Below are positions 30,793-52,883 of a DNA stretch of 64,000 bases, piece by piece (positions within the stretch are counted from its first letter, which is position 1; every line of letters begins with the position of its first letter). The stretch covers positions 744,001 to 808,000 of the forward strand of contig JAHLKI010000009.1 in assembly GCA_025602905.1 (NCBI GenBank), in the 5' to 3' direction. This stretch comes from Phlyctochytrium arcticum. Its lineage: Eukaryota > Chytridiomycota > Chytridiomycetes > Chytridiales > Chytridiaceae. Position numbers and translations under genes: made by a program. The notes under the pieces were generated by a model. It searched no databases. It was not told where the DNA came from and saw nothing but the letters and a program-made list of their open reading frames with translations.

Positions 30793-31426
30793 CCCGCAAT
30801 CGCACACACACGATCAAGATTTATTTACACCCGCCCCCTCTTGATTCTTTCCTTTTTTTTGCATCTAGTTTTCACACCCCTTCAACCGTTGTATTTTGCA
30901 TATATTCCCCCCTTGCCTTGTTTTGCAACTTATATTACACGCACCCTCTTCTTCTTAGCCATGCAGGCTATCCTTGGTAGCCGGTTGTGCTTCGCATATT
31001 CCGCCATCCTCTAGCATTTTTGTACTCGAGTTTCACAATAGACTTTGAAAACCCATTTCTTGATCCGTTGCGCAAGTGAATACATCAGAAGAAAAGTCCA
31101 GGAGAAAAGTCTCTAATGTAATGTGAATATGACCAGCGTAAAACTGGCCAGGAGTAATCTAAGTAATTTCCAATGCACACTAATTACTGACTTCGGTGTA
31201 GCTGCGGCTGTAATTTTGTGGTCTCCCATCACCAGCGACAGTCGAGTTCAAGTGAATATATATACTTGAGACCAAGACTAAGTAAAAACTAAACAGTAAT
31301 TAGGTTACTTTGCGGAGTAATGCTGCCTCCGCAATAACACAGGGTGTGTAGGATGGGTTGGGTTCTATGTACATAATCTAAAAAGTAAGCTACACGAATT
31401 AAGAAAAAAGCGGAATGAGCTGTTCA
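30793..31426. other. Convergent intergenic region
   Basis: Between the ends of the RRM gene (+) and the receptor gene (-). AT-rich, with pyrimidine tracts after the RRM stop that fit a 3' UTR. No gene seen. Confidence 0.5.
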
Positions 31427-32996: not shown

Positions 32997-33359
32997 GGCG
33001 ATGGAAAGTGAGCGCCCTTCGTGGCGAAGAGCATGGCAAGACTACTGTTTTTGTCTGGAAAACCAAATGCTGGACGAAAATACTAAGGAAAAAACAGGAG
33101 ATCTCTTTGCTGCCGCTTCGTGTTCGTACCGGTATTACATTTTTGAAGGCAGTCGGATCCAGGAGCCAAGCCACCCTCATAAACTCCTCCAGGATTTGCC
33201 GAAATTTGAAATTTCCCAACCGCCGCAATTCATCCTCTGGGTATAAGCAGCCTTCAAACATCGATCAAGTGGAATACATCAAGACAGAAGACAAAGTCAA
33301 GGGAGGGATACTCTAGTTGAGCGACTATCAATTTGTGAGCCGCGGAAACGGGCAGGGCG
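32997..33359. other. Divergent promoter region
   Basis: 363 bp between the starts of the receptor gene (-) and the F-box/ankyrin-like gene (+). No coding frame of its own is supported. Confidence 0.5.
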
Positions 33360-34592
33360 ATGCGTGCAGTGGAGAGCAGTCAACCGAGAATCGCATGGAC
33401 GCTTTGCACCCTCCCTTCTGAACTACACGCCCACATCTTTACCTACATTGGTCACCCACAAGCACTTACGGAGACTTGCCAGCTGTTCTATTGTCTTGGA
33501 CAACAATCTGCGGTACGGCGAGCGTGGACCCATTTGCAAGCCGAAGAACTCGAACAACGATGGGTAGATGATTTGGGCCGAAAGGAGGGAACGGGCAACA
33601 TTGCTGCCACAGAGTTGCAAGGTGGAGAAGCTCAAACACTATGGAGGGACTGGGCGAGTGGGCGACAGGCTGGTGTCGTCGGGGAACCGCTGCCTGCGGA
33701 ATCTTCTCGAGAGCAGGGTATAACGATTCCACCAAGCTCGGCGGAAGCACATCAAGCTTCACCGCAGTCTTCAGAATCTCAGGATCAGAGTCAGATGGCC
33801 GACTCTTCATCGGGATCCGCTCAATGCCGTGCAACTACCCATCCCATTCCCTACTCACCCGTTCAAATCTATCAATACCACAACCATCCTCCACCTCCTC
33901 CTCCCAAGTCTTCTATCCCGACTGCGTCTGGAGGAGTTCCGCGTCTTTTTCGTTCCGACTTATCAACACTAGTCTATTTCCTTAACGTTCGTCGAGAACT
34001 GCTTCATCCGCTTCTACATACCCATCTCTTCAAACGATTCGTTATGACCAAACAACCTGAGGCCCTTCTCAGCCTCCTTACCCTAGGCGCCACAAAGCGA
34101 TCTCTGGCTCCTTCAGCAAGCACCGTGGAAGCGCTGTTCCTTATGGCGGTCGTGTCTGGGGACACGCAAACCGTTGCCCATCTTGTCACGTACCGCCCTC
34201 GCGCCATCGAGCGCAGATTTCATCTTGCGGGAATATTGGCCACCCGCTATGGTCGGGTTGACCTGGTCCGCTTTTTCTGTGAGAAAACCGATTGGGACCC
34301 AATGGGTCAGCCAAATGCTATTGATATAGCCTGCGGAGCGACCGAGCCGAATCTGCAGATAGTGGAAATCTTTGTTCGATGGATGGCCAATCGTGAAGCG
34401 ACATCGCCATCCCCAGCATCCGCAATTCCCAGCGACATCAGTACTGCCCCTTCTTCACCTACCTCTACTTCACATGATACCCAAACGTCAAGCATCCGCA
34501 AATATCCTACACTTCCCAGCAGATTGGCCACATTGGCCCAAGCGAACCCCCAAGTCGCTTCTCTTTTGTTTGAATGTGGACTTGTTCGCTAG
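33360..34592 (+). CDS. F-box and ankyrin-like repeat protein (410 aa)
   Basis: A single exon with an ATG at 33360. Residues 17-46 (LPSELHAHIFTYIGHPQALT) fit an F-box, suggesting a substrate adaptor of an SCF ubiquitin ligase. A disordered linker contains a Pro run (HPPPPPPK). Residues 220-345 form helix pairs typical of degenerate ankyrin repeats: LLSLLTLGATKRSLAPS, FLMAVVSGDTQTVAHLV, LAGILATRYGRVDLVRFF. The C-terminus (ATLAQANPQVASLLFECGL) is another such helix. The target is unknown. Its stop lies about 60 bp from the end of the Fanzor-associated element. Confidence 0.7.
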   Translation: MRAVESSQPRIAWTLCTLPSELHAHIFTYIGHPQALTETCQLFYCLGQQSAVRRAWTHLQAEELEQRWVDDLGRKEGTGNIAATELQGGEAQTLWRDWASGRQAGVVGEPLPAESSREQGITIPPSSAEAHQASPQSSESQDQSQMADSSSGSAQCRATTHPIPYSPVQIYQYHNHPPPPPPKSSIPTASGGVPRLFRSDLSTLVYFLNVRRELLHPLLHTHLFKRFVMTKQPEALLSLLTLGATKRSLAPSASTVEALFLMAVVSGDTQTVAHLVTYRPRAIERRFHLAGILATRYGRVDLVRFFCEKTDWDPMGQPNAIDIACGATEPNLQIVEIFVRWMANREATSPSPASAIPSDISTAPSSPTSTSHDTQTSSIRKYPTLPSRLATLAQANPQVASLLFECGLVR

Positions 34593-34669
34593 TCCACCTT
34601 TACATCCAACCAACGCACAACCGCGCATTCGTACTTTGCTTCAGGATTCTAATTGTACAAGCTGGCAAA

Positions 34670-34686
34670 CCCGAGCTTTGCTCGGG
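34670..34686. repeat. Inverted repeat (hairpin), Helitron-3'-end-like
   Basis: CCCGAGC TTT GCTCGGG on the plus strand, perfect 7-bp arms. GC-rich hairpins just inside the terminus are usual in Helitrons. Confidence 0.8.
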
Positions 34687-34700
34687 ATACAAACTTTGTA

Positions 34701-34723
34701 ATTCGAGATGACAAATCTCGAAT
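34701..34723. repeat. Inverted repeat (hairpin) near Fanzor element end
   Basis: ATTCGAGAT GACAA ATCTCGAAT on the plus strand, perfect 9-bp arms. Confidence 0.85.
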
Positions 34724-34799
34724 ACCAATAGCGACAGAGCGTGAACTCTGCCGGATACACTATCCTACGTCTATATAAAACTATATACAAAAGACATCA

Positions 34800-36936
34800 C
34801 TAACCACGGGCAAAGGGCGCTGGCCGGCCGTTCCCGGCTAACATGGACCGGACGATGAATGCCATGTTTGCGGTACTGAGCTTGTCTCGGTTGTGATATC
34901 TTGTCGGAACTCCCAGGGTCGCGTCGTTCGTCCAGAGGGCTTGTGTGCATTGGAGGTTGGTACAACCTAGCAAGCCATGAACGTTTTCGTCGTGTCCTTG
35001 GGCCCGTCGCCAGGGCCGTGAGCTTGGCCGAGACTTGAAGTCCTTGTCGACTGGGTGGTGGCAGAGGGAGCAGCGGCTGGACGTCCGGAACTCGTCCAGA
35101 AGAAAGCACCTGATGCCATGCCGCTTGAATGTGTTCCTCCACCCCGACGTCTTGGTGGACTCTTGGAATCGCATGGTCCGTCCAGCGTCGTTCCAGTCGC
35201 CCATCACAACCACCAAGTCATGTCCGTATCTTGCCCGCATACGGTTGATGAACTGGGATTCCGACCGTTGCCTCAATGTAAACGCTCGGAATCGTGACCG
35301 CCGATGGAATCGCAAATGGTAGAATGCTTTCAATTCCGTACGGTGGGCACCCTTGTAGGCAAGGTATTCGGAAAACCGGTCCACGTCCATCGACTTGTGG
35401 GTGGGGATGGCGGACTCCAATCCTTCGATACCATGTTCCCGTCGCAACTCACGCAGTTGACTCCTCGTCGCCCTCGTCTTGGTCTCGTGAGCGCGCTGGT
35501 TGGCCGTGTATCGCATAGTGGTGTCGTGGTTAAGATCCCGGCAAAAGAGCAAGTCTCTTTTATTGGGGTCAATCACCACGACATTGGCGGCCGCGCGCAC
35601 TTGGTCCAAGTGGTGCTCGACGTAGGTTGCTTGGACTCGTCGGAGCAACTCACTTTTCGAGACGCGAGGGGTCCTGTGTCCATATCTTGTACCCGGGACC
35701 TTGAGGTGTACAGACACGCCGTGACCGTCGGTTGCGATGGAGCCGTCAAACTCGAGACCTGTGGATGGCTGGGGTAGAAACGCCTTCGTGTCGAGGCGAA
35801 AGCATTGACTCCACAGATCGTGTTTGCGCTCCGAGGTCAGCGTGCCCATTTGTCTCAAGGACATTCCCAGGATATGGAGACACAGAATCTTGGTGTCGAT
35901 ACGAACATACGACTAAATGTCCGTCTTGCGTAGTGGTATCGCGGTGAAGACGGGATAGTCGTACTGTTCGTATAGGGCAGCGAGGCGACAATAGGCTTGC
36001 AGGTAGTCGAGTGGCTGCACGACGACATCGTAGGCGAGGCCCTCTTGACTCTATACCGCCCTGGGCGGCAGGACCGACCATACTTCTTCGACCAACAACT
36101 TCTCGTGGTCTTCCAACTCAGCAAATTCGTCCTCGGTGGGGATCGCTTCGAAAGTGGCGAACGTCTTGATCCACCGCACTCGCGCGTAGAACCATTCCAA
36201 TAGCTCCGGCTCGTTGAGGTTCTTCAGGAATCGCGAGAGTTCCTTGACGTCGAGTCGTTTGTTGATGTACCGCATCACCATTTTGTAAAAGTTTTCTTGG
36301 ATGTTGACTTTCAAATTGGTGAGGATGCTTTCGCCCACATAGTGCGCCGATTGTTGATCATTGGGGAGGTTTGGTGCCTGGAAATTGGCGATGGCTTGGT
36401 AGCCAGGAATCCAGGCCTCATATCGGCTCTTGATCACTTGTGCAGCCGGCGATGACGGGCGGTACGCGTCTCCCTTGTTGAGAAGATGAAAAATGGCGAA
36501 TACATCTTCTGGGGACGGCGCAACAAAGTCGTGACTCCAAATTTGCTGGGTGTAATAGTGTCGGAGGAAGAAGGTCGTGTGCTGGGCCAGATCGTGGACG
36601 GTGGCGATGTACTCCAGCAGCCGAGCCAGCCATACTGGTGCGAGGGGGTGCTGGTGCCGAAAGACTTTGGCAAAGGATATCTTTCGACAGGTGTGGCGCT
36701 TGGTAGGAGGGGTTCCGATGGAGGGAGGGCCAGATGGCGGTGTTGAGGATGGCCCTGGGTCCTTGTGGGTGGGAGTAGGATGGTCGTCGCGTATTGGAGG
36801 TCTCTACATGGACATAGATAGGAAATGTCAGATGGGCTATCCAAAAGTCATCGCATGCTAAACACACTGTGCATACCTTTGGCGGGCGACCAAGAGACGA
36901 AGACGGTGGCCCGCCAGCGGCCCGCTTGGGGGGCAT
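34800..36936 (-). CDS. Fanzor1-type RNA-guided endonuclease (TnpB homologue), two in-frame TAG codons
   Basis: Eukaryotic TnpB relatives cut DNA guided by an RNA encoded at the element's 3' end. Exon 1 is 36936-36877 (MPPKRAAGGPPSSSLGRPPK), intron 36876-36804 (73 nt, GTATGC...TAG), exon 2 36803-34800 (exactly 668 codons with stop). Counting codons: RuvC-I Asp in VVVIDPNKRDLL (about 432), GDW at 555-557, LDEFRTS (about 589-595) supplying the Fanzor-type alternative Glu, zinc ligands CSLC (598-601) and CTNLQC (634-639), RuvC-III Asp in NRDKLSTANM (660). The D / TS / C4 zinc finger / RD order is the Fanzor hallmark. TAG codons at 271 (36053-36051) and 317 (35915-35913) interrupt an otherwise continuous frame. 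The N-terminus is basic, which could serve as a nuclear localisation signal. Codons look more G/C-ending than in neighbouring genes. Confidence 0.85.
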
Positions 36937-37070
36937 GGCGGGGGGCGGCGGTTGTATCGACGATCGGTGATGAGAGGGGAAGATGTGCATTGATCGTAAA
37001 GTTTTGGTTCGAAGGAATGGGGCTAATCTGTTGCGGGAGATAAATGGGGGATGGAGTGGGTCGGGGCGGT

Positions 37071-37078
37071 ATTTATAT
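37071..37078 (-). promoter_or_regulatory. TATA-like box upstream of the Fanzor gene
   Basis: The minus strand reads GCATATAAATACC about 135 bp before the Fanzor ATG, followed by a GC-rich leader. The distance fits a TATA box with a short 5' UTR; function not demonstrated. Confidence 0.3.
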
Positions 37079-37337
37079 GCGAGGGCATCCCAGCGCCGCC
37101 CAGCAGTCCGCAGCGGAGTTTAGCTGCGGCGACCTTACGAAACAAGGTTGTTTGACTCTCAGATGCTGCCGGACGCGCCAGAGACCGGAAGAGACCCCAA
37201 TTGACTGTCTTTACGGAGGATTCAATCCTCCGGGTGCATTGTCAGTGCATTGTCTTCTTTGTAATTTAGTCGTTGCCCTCGGACTGTTGGCAGTACTCAA
37301 CAGCCGTCGGCTGAAGACATCTTCCCATCCATGAAGA

Positions 37338-37360
37338 TGCCACTTTCGAGCTTTTCTGAC
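37338..37360 (+). repeat. Dispersed repeat copy 1 (TGCCACTTTCGAGCTTTTC core)
   Basis: The 23-bp sequence here recurs exactly in inverted orientation at 50961-50983, and 19 bp of it recur at 37732-37750. Weaker similarity extends about 30 bp further. Copies 1 and 2 bracket the Helitron helicase fragment. Confidence 0.8.
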
Positions 37361-37425
37361 GGCGGTCGTATCTATTATATCTTACATAGCGGTTGGCACG
37401 CCTCGCTTCGCAGCGCGCATCGACT

Positions 37426-37737
37426 TTACATAGGAGAACGATGAGGAACGCGCATAACACTTGTCACATTCAAAACTTCTTTATATACAACGTTTCTCCT
37501 CAAGTCGTCGTCCTTGACGATGACTGGAACTTCAAACAAGAACTTGAGACCTGCTCTTGAATCAGACCGCGAGCCAGCAACGTACAGTTGTCCGTGGGCA
37601 AAGACGGGATTGGGTAGGTAGACGCCCACTTTCGACATTGTCTGGCCCTGGCTTTTGGTGATTGTCATGCCATACGCGAGTCTGATGGGAAATTGCTTAC
37701 TGGCACTTACTGCCACCATACAACATGGCTTTGCCAC
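37426..37737 (-). pseudogene. Helitron helicase C-terminal fragment
   Basis: The frame reads [20 protein letters not shown], then [20 protein letters not shown] and ends near [11 protein letters not shown], the standard end of the Pif1-like helicase of Helitron Rep/Hel proteins (helicase motifs V-VI). Everything upstream (Rep domain, Walker A) is absent; the residues before FPIRL do not look like helicase. The first residue called is a GTG, so this is a truncated relic. Confidence 0.85.
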
Positions 37738-37750
37738 TTTCGAGCTTTTC
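37732..37750 (+). repeat. Dispersed repeat copy 2
   Basis: TGCCACTTTCGAGCTTTTC, direct orientation relative to the copy at 37338. Confidence 0.8.
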
Positions 37751-37957
37751 GGGCCATTCTAATTGTATATACAGAGTGTTTATTCTTCAATTCCAAACAA
37801 TAGAGAAAGAATCGAACAAATTAAGTAGTAAATAAGTGTCAACTGACAAAGCGAGCGCATTGCGCAGATCAAGTAAAAAGTATGGTACAGGAAGTAGCTA
37901 ATGGCTTGTGATTGCTTGCGTGCCAAAAACTTGTGAAGAGTGGTATCTGATAGGCGT

Positions 37958-39131
37958 CTAGAATCGTTCCTTCATGCGCGATGAAATGGTTCGGAGTTTG
38001 GAATAGACCTTGCCAGGGGTGGCTCCCAAAATCAGGGCGACGACAGCATCTCGTGCGATTCGAATGTTGGCAAAGGAGCCCAGAATGTGAATCTTGGTGT
38101 CGGCAATGACGACACGGGTGCGAGATGTATTTTCGATAGCGTACTTGGTTTTACCGTCCTTGCCGACAATGCGACCAATGGCACGAGACAGATTATCTCC
38201 GGCGAGGGTCTTCACGTCCTTGATTTCAAAAGTGTCGAGGTAAAGATCGTCCAATCGTAACAGAGCAATAGCATCATTGATGTCAAAACCGAGGCAAAAT
38301 GCCTTGACGAAATCAGCGCCCTTCTGAAGAGCACCTGCATCTTCAGTTTGCTTGCAAGATCGGATTTCCACGGCTCTTGATTTGACGTTCATACGCACTT
38401 GGAGCTTCATGTGCTCAACAAGAGGTGAGTAAATTTTGATCCATTCGCTTTGGAGGGGGGTCATACGGTGAGGAGGAACTGGTATCTTTCGGAAGTCGCG
38501 GGCGCCGGCCTGATAGTAACAGAAGATGAAAGAAAATTGATAAGTATGCTACTCAGAAACATCTCATCAATGCGTTCAGCTCCGTTCCGTTCGGATGTGT
38601 GGTCAGTTATAGTGTTTAGCATCAATGGCAATCCGGTTAGGATCTGTATATTTGCCAGCATCCAAGTTGAATCGCTTCAGGGCTTGACTCTATATGGGTT
38701 CATCACTCCACACACCCCAAATTCAGTTGGGCGAACCAGTCCTGAACCCATCCAGCAGAAATTGAACATGCGACGCTACTCACCATTGCTGAGGGTTTCA
38801 ACTTCTTGAACTTGGGCTTGGGAGCCTGATCCGCGCCATCAACCTGCATGGCCTCAGAGACATCTTCCAAGCTTATCAATGGGGGTAGCGGGGGATTTGT
38901 TGTTGCTGTGGATGTTGGGGAAGATGCAGGGGTGGCGGAGAGGGCAGGTAATGTGGTTGTAGATGGGGATGTGGGGGATGAAGGGGATGTTGAGTCGGGA
39001 GCAGATGCAAAGGATGTGAGAGGGGTAACAGTTTGAGCCTTTTCTGATTTTGAGCGCTTTTTCTTGGCGGCCGAGACTGGAGATGACTTTGGACGGTCAA
39101 CAGCCATGCCATTTGTTGGTAGACGACCCAT
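37958..39131 (-). CDS. PNO1: PNO1/Dim2, KH-domain 40S ribosome assembly factor
   Basis: PNO1 binds the 3' end of 18S pre-rRNA and helps Nob1 cleavage in nuclear and cytoplasmic pre-40S particles. Exon 1 (39131 to about 38785) holds a disordered Ser/Thr/Pro N-terminus ending KPKFKKLKPSAM. After an intron of about 275 nt, exon 2 starts AGARDFRKIPVPPHRMTPLQ. The two KH-like folds follow, including FDINDAIALLRLDDLYLDTFEIKDV and GRIVGKDGKTKYAIENTSRTRVV (GxxG-type loop), then KIHILGSFANIRIARDAVV. The protein ends RMKERF with TAG, matching the family. A clear single-copy housekeeping gene. Confidence 0.93.
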
Positions 39132-50859: not shown

Positions 50860-52883
50860 CTGCGAGGGGAGGAAGAATTTGGATTTATGGGAAAAGAGAA
50901 GTGGCGAAGCATAATACCACGTGACTTATGTAATCTATTATATAAATAAAAACGATCAAAGTCAGAAAAGCTCGAAAGTGGCACAGTTTTGGAAGAGAGG
51001 GGGCAAAGTCATAAATTATTTTATTATAGTGGCACAGTTGGTTTTGGACACTATGCCCTTCCTTTGTTCTAAATGACTTTCATCCACATATACAGTAGTA
51101 GAGGAAAAAACAAGAGAATAAGCAGTCAATTTATCTAAAGCACAAATGCTTGCCTGTACTGTATATATATAAGAAGTGGACAGTGGCCCCTTGAGCCGGT
51201 TGCGGCACTGGGGCCCCTGGCTGAACGCTGCGCGCTACTGTATACGTGCATGTAGACCTACCAGATGGTTCAATGGGTATTCCTTTTAAGATTGGGACAT
51301 CTTACGCGCATCACAAAGTGCCAGTTAGATTGATGTGACTCCAATGCCATTTACTTCCTACCTAAAGAAGAAACAGCACCAAATGTGTCTCTTCCAGGAA
51401 TGACCCTTTCTTAGCCGCCAACCCATTCCTACCTTGGAGCGAACGTCTGGCCCTCTTTGCCATTCGACTGTAATACTGTATTGGCTGATCATTGAGAAGG
51501 ATCAATCAATGTGCTAAAGTTGGAAGTACAAAATGTATTATACAGTAAATTTTGCAGTAGTCATTGCACCAAAATGCCGTGTCATTTCATATGAACAATG
51601 TTGTGGCAGAGATAAGACATTTTTTGCTCTTGCCAGTGCTGGCTCTTTAGGAAAGGAAAACAGGAACAGACAGGCCTACAACAGGATGACTAGATGCTTT
51701 TGAAAGCGTACAATATGTTGTAGGTGACAGTTCCTGGATTCTCTTCTTCAAAACAAACCCAGACTGCCATTTTATACGATTTCACACAATAGGGACACTG
51801 GCTAAACTAAGAAATATACAAAACTTTGCACGCTTGCATTGGGTCACTAACATAAAATTTCCCACGATCCAATTACTAAGGCGCGATTTTGGCTTGGCAG
51901 ATTTCTTGAACTACCGAAGTCAGCTTCTTCGCGGATTCAATGCCCCGGTGCACACGTTAGATAAAGGTCCGAACTAATATGTTGGCCAACCCCATTTGCA
52001 CCATAAAACCCCATGAGATGCGCTTGGTGAGTTGCTCCAATAGAAATGCTTTACCATTGGAGATGATGCGGCATATAAATGTACGAACCTGTTGGTGGCA
52101 CTGTTGCTAGCTTGGGCGGTGATTTTTGGTACATGCTGCCTTCCACACTTGGGCGAGACAACCTTAGTCTTATTAACTTGACGGAGTAGTACGCACAACT
52201 ATAGGCTCAAATTTGCAAATGCTCATGTAGTTTTTGTGAGGGAATTTCACAAGTGCCTAATTCAGCTGAGCATTGGATATCTACCCACGCCCAATAATGA
52301 ATACAATCATAATGTTTTTGAAAGTGACTGGACTACCATCGGTTCTAAACTGTTGGTTCAGGTTGAGGGTCCTTCAATGGTCTGGGAGAGAATCAAACTT
52401 TTGTATGAACCGCCAATTTTGAAAGAATTCCATTCAAATCTCGACATACTTACCTCGAAGAAGACAATGGGATTATTGTCAGTGAAATGATTTTAGCAGT
52501 TACATTCTACCATGTCTTCAGCAAGGACAAATTGGCAAATTAAGACAATTCTCAGAACCATACTCAACTTTTAGATATTGTCACCGGTCTCTGTGAAGAT
52601 GAGCAGTATTCAGGGTCAAGATATTCAACATGCACATCCATTACCTATGCAATTACTATTCACAAGTTGTATGGGCAAGCAAGGAAGGGATCGGTGTATA
52701 TCATACCTACATTTTTGCCAGATCTCTTGAATGTCATTCACTGAGCGGACACTTCTTCTCCGATACATTTCCATTTTGTTATTTTTGTCTCTTCACCTCC
52801 TGCTTCACCTCATTTGGTGGAGATCAAAATTAAAATTCTTCCCTACATTGTACCCGAGCGAAGCGAGGGTTTACCCTCTCGTT
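50860..52883. other. Gene-poor AT-rich region with repeat traces
   Basis: No gene of coding quality. Contains the inverted dispersed repeat (50961-50983), AGTGGCACAGTT twice (50977 and 51031), and an imperfect hairpin near 52853-52880 next to the end of the following gene. It is probably decayed transposon sequence. Confidence 0.5.
50961..50983 (-). repeat. Dispersed repeat copy 3 (inverted)
   Basis: Exact 23-bp reverse complement of 37338-37360, with similar AT-rich sequence continuing to about 50930. It is followed by AGTGGCACAGTT, itself repeated at 51031. Confidence 0.8.

Follow-up and report, generated by a model that had tools for sequence, protein, structure and literature searches.

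The window analysed here is a stretch of 64,000 nucleotides from Phlyctochytrium arcticum (Chytridiales per NCBI; contig JAHLKI010000009.1, positions 744,001 to 808,000). It contains one copy of a transposable element that carries a gene of the Fanzor1 family. The gene lies on the reverse strand and consists of two exons:

36877..36936, reverse strand: Fanzor1 exon 1, beginning MPPKR
36804..36876, reverse strand: GT-AG intron, 73 nt
34800..36803, reverse strand: Fanzor1 exon 2, with two in-frame TAG codons; stop codon at 34800-34802

The single 73-nt intron of the original prediction was recovered (GT-AG, 36876-36804), and its borders are also kept in L046, a diverged copy elsewhere in the genome. 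All five diagnostic motifs were found in the order that had been given: IDPNKRDL, GDW, LDEFRTS, CxxC/CxxxxC, and NRDKLST. The MPPK start of exon 1 is shared with SpuFz1 (Spizellomyces punctatus) and with P0002, a hypothetical protein of P. arcticum (DFS34DRAFT_639215). The basic, proline-rich N-terminal leader had been singled out as elongated; it is not unusual, since a similar leader is found in P0002.

SpuFz1 is the closest protein of solved structure to the window gene. Three pieces of exon 2 matched it separately, with E values of 7e-106 (34800-35912), 9.6e-9 (35916-36050), and 9.4e-35 (36051-36803). As judged from these alignments, the three matches are far beyond chance. The second-best match of the piece 34800-35912 was a Parasitella Fanzor (E 5.2e-32). 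Searches of Pfam and NCBIfam returned TnpB/Cas12f-type matches only, all under the cut-offs. The Fanzor1 signature is present, comprising the RuvC D-E-D triad, the TS-x-x-C4 zinc finger, and the RD. The codons of the putative catalytic triad are:

35568..35570, reverse strand: D codon (IDPNKRD), aligned with SpuFz1 D383
35091..35093, reverse strand: E codon (LLDEFRTS), aligned with SpuFz1 E541
34884..34886, reverse strand: D codon (NRDKLST), aligned with SpuFz1 D606

The fold of solved Fanzor1 proteins was matched by a sister copy of the window gene (Foldseek; VIA-align 2 served only to re-rank the Foldseek matches). The assignment to Fanzor1 of a fungal host is backed by sequence, by this fold of the sister copy, and by catalytic residues paired in an alignment. 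SpuFz1 N385 is conserved in the window protein as well; R96, N133, and R291 are replaced.

Family, fungal host, triad, and sister fold all agree with the predicted Fanzor1 gene; overlooked were the two in-frame TAG codons of exon 2 (36051-36053 and 35913-35915). Because of these, the window copy is unable to yield the complete protein under the standard code, and the gene at this locus is a pseudogene. Neither TAG occurs in any of the four sisters that span those places (L021, L022, L023, and L026; six sisters aligned); L024 and L025 are deleted where the TAGs would fall. Fanzor1 descent with subsequent decay is virtually certain. Taken alone, the window locus is an ordinary dead copy.

The C-terminal piece matches 62 stretches of the genome (71 candidates scored), many of which are fragments of a single copy. 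The window copy is 99.4-99.5% identical to L021, L022, and L023 across 3.1 kb; L024, L025, and L026 belong to the same subfamily and carry deletions or truncations. The spliced reading contains two stops in the window copy, one in L021, one in L023, and none within the retained part of L026; in L022 a net 1-nt loss shifts the frame. L022 also retains its intron, and the intron together with the 1-nt loss gives an open unspliced frame of 711 codons (L022:4274-6409, reverse strand). The majority frame of exon 2 in the subfamily is open. The seven copies depart from it by 26 non-synonymous and 5 synonymous changes (84% non-synonymous); among all single changes that are possible, the non-synonymous share is 76%. 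These counts thus give no hint that the protein was under selection once the copies had inserted. In a tree of 38 rows, the window subfamily stands next to a second subfamily of the same genome (100/99), and SpuFz1 and its paralogues form another clade. Further P. arcticum rows fall into at least two additional groups, and several long branches were flagged as unsure. P0002 and locus L015 (contig C48) have identical rows.

The repeated element around the gene has sharp ends, which makes it a eukaryotic transposon of non-IS607 type. Its features in the window are:

34658..37755, reverse strand: Fanzor element, 3,098 bp, lacking the first 37 bp; aligned end-to-end with L021, L022, and L023
37426..37755, reverse strand: fragment inside the element that resembles the C-terminal tail of Helitron helicases; 75% over residues 20-75 at C4:983696 (protein search of the same genome)
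34658..34777, reverse strand: predicted guide-RNA scaffold, with a Helitron-like 3' terminus (a hairpin, CTTG after it)

The full-length element measures 3,133 bp (L022). On the helicase-tail-like fragment, Pfam gave a helicase match that was sub-threshold only. In the older copies L028 and L046, the alignment does not begin before about element base 424-429, and the helicase-like piece is missing; the young subfamily therefore seems to have acquired a new 5' end. All five intact 5' ends (L021, L022, L023, L024, and L026) read NATA|TCTATACTA, with GATA in four and CATA in one. Each shows A|TC, corresponding to the 5'-TC between A and T of Helitron1.

At the other end, the element closes with a hairpin 12 nt from its terminus and then CTTG, followed by TA in the flank. 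The 3' flank starts with TA in 14 of 15 copies: all seven of the window subfamily (the window copy, L021-L025, and L028), five of six in subfamily 2 (the exception is L029), and both L036 and L037. The ends of L030 and L031 were placed by eye, and L026 and L027, whose 3' ends are missing, were excluded. Without L036 and L037 the count is 12/13 (P = 4e-8). In the L038 group, with ends also placed by eye, two of three copies agree (the exception is L039). Since the last four bases are CTTG and not the CTRR of canonical Helitrons (PMC3627910, consulted in part), the carrier is named Helitron-like rather than Helitron1 on the basis of its ends. A carrier of the SPu-1 type, with terminal inverted repeats of about 30 bp, was rejected; the best end-to-end inverted match did no better than shuffled sequence over 40, 60, and 100 bp (fractions 0.69, 0.35, and 0.24). 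As to Helitron2 ends, the 5' hairpin is only weak (-5.8 kcal/mol) and repeats that clearly pair were not seen, with no dedicated search made. Helitron_like_N matches number 101 in the genome (110 candidates scored), and L045 has a RepHel frame; none of these was tied to the ends of the Fanzor element. A second element in the window resembles the Fanzor element at its ends:

50934-52881, forward strand: Fanzor-free, non-autonomous Helitron-like element

In both elements, AAAAGCTCGAAAGTGGCA stands subterminally, and TTTRCC and CTYG come after a 3' hairpin. A partial copy of the Fanzor-free element in L030 (1,151 bp, 98.8% identical) has the same start position. On this evidence, the carrier of the Fanzor gene is likely to be Helitron-like.

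Truncated copies give a view of the target itself:

34646..34657, reverse strand: TACAATTAGAAT, a 12-bp direct repeat, in its 3' copy; the putative guide would start here
37756..37767, reverse strand: 5' copy of the repeat, preceded by GTATA
31084-31236, reverse strand: remnant of an L038-group Fanzor element that keeps the last codons and the 3' region; 97% match with L038/L039 at their 3' end

The remnant is flanked on both sides by the 10-bp TATTCACTTG, at ATA^TA; its 5' repeat is preceded by GTATATA, 12 bases from the remnant. Both the window copy and the remnant have lost the 5' end of the element, which makes their ATA target sequence. A direct repeat of at least 10 bp arose in 17 of 200,000 random stretch pairs, and ATA^TA makes up 1.6% of the A^T sites in the window. 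The remnant is possibly a ghost guide-RNA locus.

The last 120 nt of the element are predicted to fold at -45.7 kcal/mol (z -5.57; none of 200 shuffles as low). Rfam gave no match in window positions 34300-38300 or in L028 4600-5000. The target-adjacent motif (TAM) of SpuFz1 is CATA. Its 75-nt scaffold lies at the same place, with transcripts that extend 14-15 nt into the flank, according to the portion of PMC10432273 consulted. The insertion motif beside the P. arcticum element resembles this TAM of a close relative, so that target motif and TAM would coincide.

These observations suggest the following course. The locus is a young but decayed SpuFz1-clade Fanzor1 copy, probably on a non-autonomous Helitron-like element. 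Movement would be in trans, by a Helitron RepHel protein, and would at times use just the 3' end (one-ended). RNA from the 3' end of a copy, with the right flank as guide, might be bound by an intact Fanzor1 encoded at another locus, which might cut the uninserted site with NATA as TAM. Repair would then copy the element to that site again, or to the homologous chromosome. Fanzor1 descent and decay, a Helitron-like carrier, and some form of trans movement are, taken jointly, fairly likely. Homing by guide and TAM is more tentative, with the chances leaning somewhat against it.

Several points weigh against this interpretation. Beside the CTTG terminus, the Fanzor-free element 50934-52881, of which both ends were read, sits at GTAA^TTTT and not at ATA^TA, and its 3' end has no second copy as a check. 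No empty site was found among the examined loci, each flank having its match solely at its own place. ATA and TA are not distinguishable from element ends where the copy is full-length. L025 is also 5'-truncated and has no clear direct repeat; no convincing target duplication was found in L025, L031, or L033. In the 3' RNA, covariation is absent (0/39 pairs among 4 sequences), and L028 has lost two base pairs of the middle hairpin. SpuFz1 N133, which contacts a TAM T retained in NATA, is H in the window protein.

The best-surviving alternative, to which we give almost an even chance, is that NATA^TA is an insertion preference of the carrier only; the likeness to the SpuFz1 TAM would be coincidental, and Fanzor would have no role in the spread. 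Helitron-like carriers with Fanzor-independent insertion motifs do exist (TTTT in Chlamydomonas; PMC3627910, in part), and every near-full copy of the window subfamily is broken. However, conserved triads are read through in several P. arcticum lineages, long open frames occur in subfamily 2, and the Fanzor-free element lies at a site other than ATA^TA, albeit in one case. The open frames measure 724 codons in L010, L014, and L015.

It is improbable that the carrier is a cut-and-paste element like SPu-1 of S. punctatus, with the flanking TA as target duplication and no Helitron involved. Full-length copies do have 5' flanks ending in TA and 3' flanks starting with TA, and SPu-1, the element of the closest relative studied, shows putative TA duplications (PMC3627910, in part). 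SPu-1 has 33-bp terminal inverted repeats, however, which are absent here; the element ends are shared with a Helitron-like element, and a 2-bp duplication does not account for the 12-bp repeat beside the truncated copy in the window. Reverse transcription of RNA, with 5' truncation and target duplication of the LINE type, is a still poorer account of the window copy. The exact 3' end, the 5' end short by 37 bp, and the 12-bp direct repeat would fit it, whereas the intron is retained, an A-tail was not seen at the 3' junction, and the target is ATA^TA as in full-length copies. Recoding of TAG as an amino acid, which would make the gene functional and is suggested by both stops being TAG, was tried and rejected as having next to no chance, given the four sisters without these stops, the TAA and TGA stops beside TAG in other matches of this genome, and the adjoining open frame 33339-34592 that terminates in TAG.

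Some neighbouring features were also noted. A PNO1-type KH-domain gene (37958-38548, reverse strand; KH_PNO1_2nd, 9e-47) lies about 200 bp from the insertion. In L036, a 160-bp tandem duplication (L036:3714-4038, 92.8%) begins directly 3' of the Fanzor element. In subfamily 2 (L029-L034), the 5' element ends differ from copy to copy. L031 (389-1002) and L033 (sense 1021-1634) have a stretch upstream of the Fanzor in common, containing a frame that resembles part of a MULE-type transposase; L029, L032, and L034 share a different upstream stretch.

The Helitron-like reading touches on a wider pattern, which we consider doubtful. The SpuFz1 clade would ride on two kinds of carrier: in P. arcticum a Helitron-like one (HUH, single-strand), in S. 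punctatus one that duplicates TA and has inverted repeats. The same ATA would adjoin the insertion in both hosts, and carrier target, TAM, and scaffold end would coincide. If true, this would be a eukaryotic counterpart to the IS200/IS605 TnpA-TnpB arrangement, and one-ended 5'-truncated copies that keep only the guide-RNA end could serve as trans-acting ghost guides. A SpuFz1 relative on a Helitron-like carrier with a SpuFz1-TAM-like insertion motif would offer a testable case for the use of Fanzor to carriers. No report of this element was found among the papers listed for Fanzors or P. arcticum, most subscription papers and supplements being outside the scope.

The element can be compared with three known systems (Fanzor background from parts of PMC3627910, PMC10432273, PMC10711439, and PMC11423790). 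Like SpuFz1/SPu-1, it combines the same fold, the conserved D-E-D and N385, and a predicted guide RNA just after the gene; the ATA of its NATA is also found in the CATA TAM. SPu-1 is bounded by inverted repeats of 30-33 bp, with putative TA duplications (parts of PMC3627910 and PMC10432273), whereas the P. arcticum element has no inverted repeats and Helitron-like ends. Its gene also differs from SpuFz1 by the intron and by the replaced R96, N133, and R291. The P0002 subfamily is the sister subfamily in the tree (56% identity), and its element end is CTTG|TA in 5/6 copies. It differs from the window subfamily in its variable 5' ends and in the annotated P0002, which lacks the zinc-finger loop. 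This loop (RPHSRPWRR in relatives; L031:5290-5370) is seemingly spliced out of the annotated protein. The elements CRe-1, 2, and 3 of Chlamydomonas reinhardtii (Helitron2) are likewise non-autonomous Helitron carriers with exact 3' ends. Their 5'-truncated copies, with 7-19-bp duplications at the target of the full copies, follow the pattern of the window copy (PMC3627910, in part). The target is TTTT in the CRe elements and ATA^TA in P. arcticum. The Helitron2 5' hairpin and asymmetric repeats are a CRe feature, against the weak 5' hairpin of the P. arcticum element. The CRe Fanzor1 probably belongs to a different lineage.
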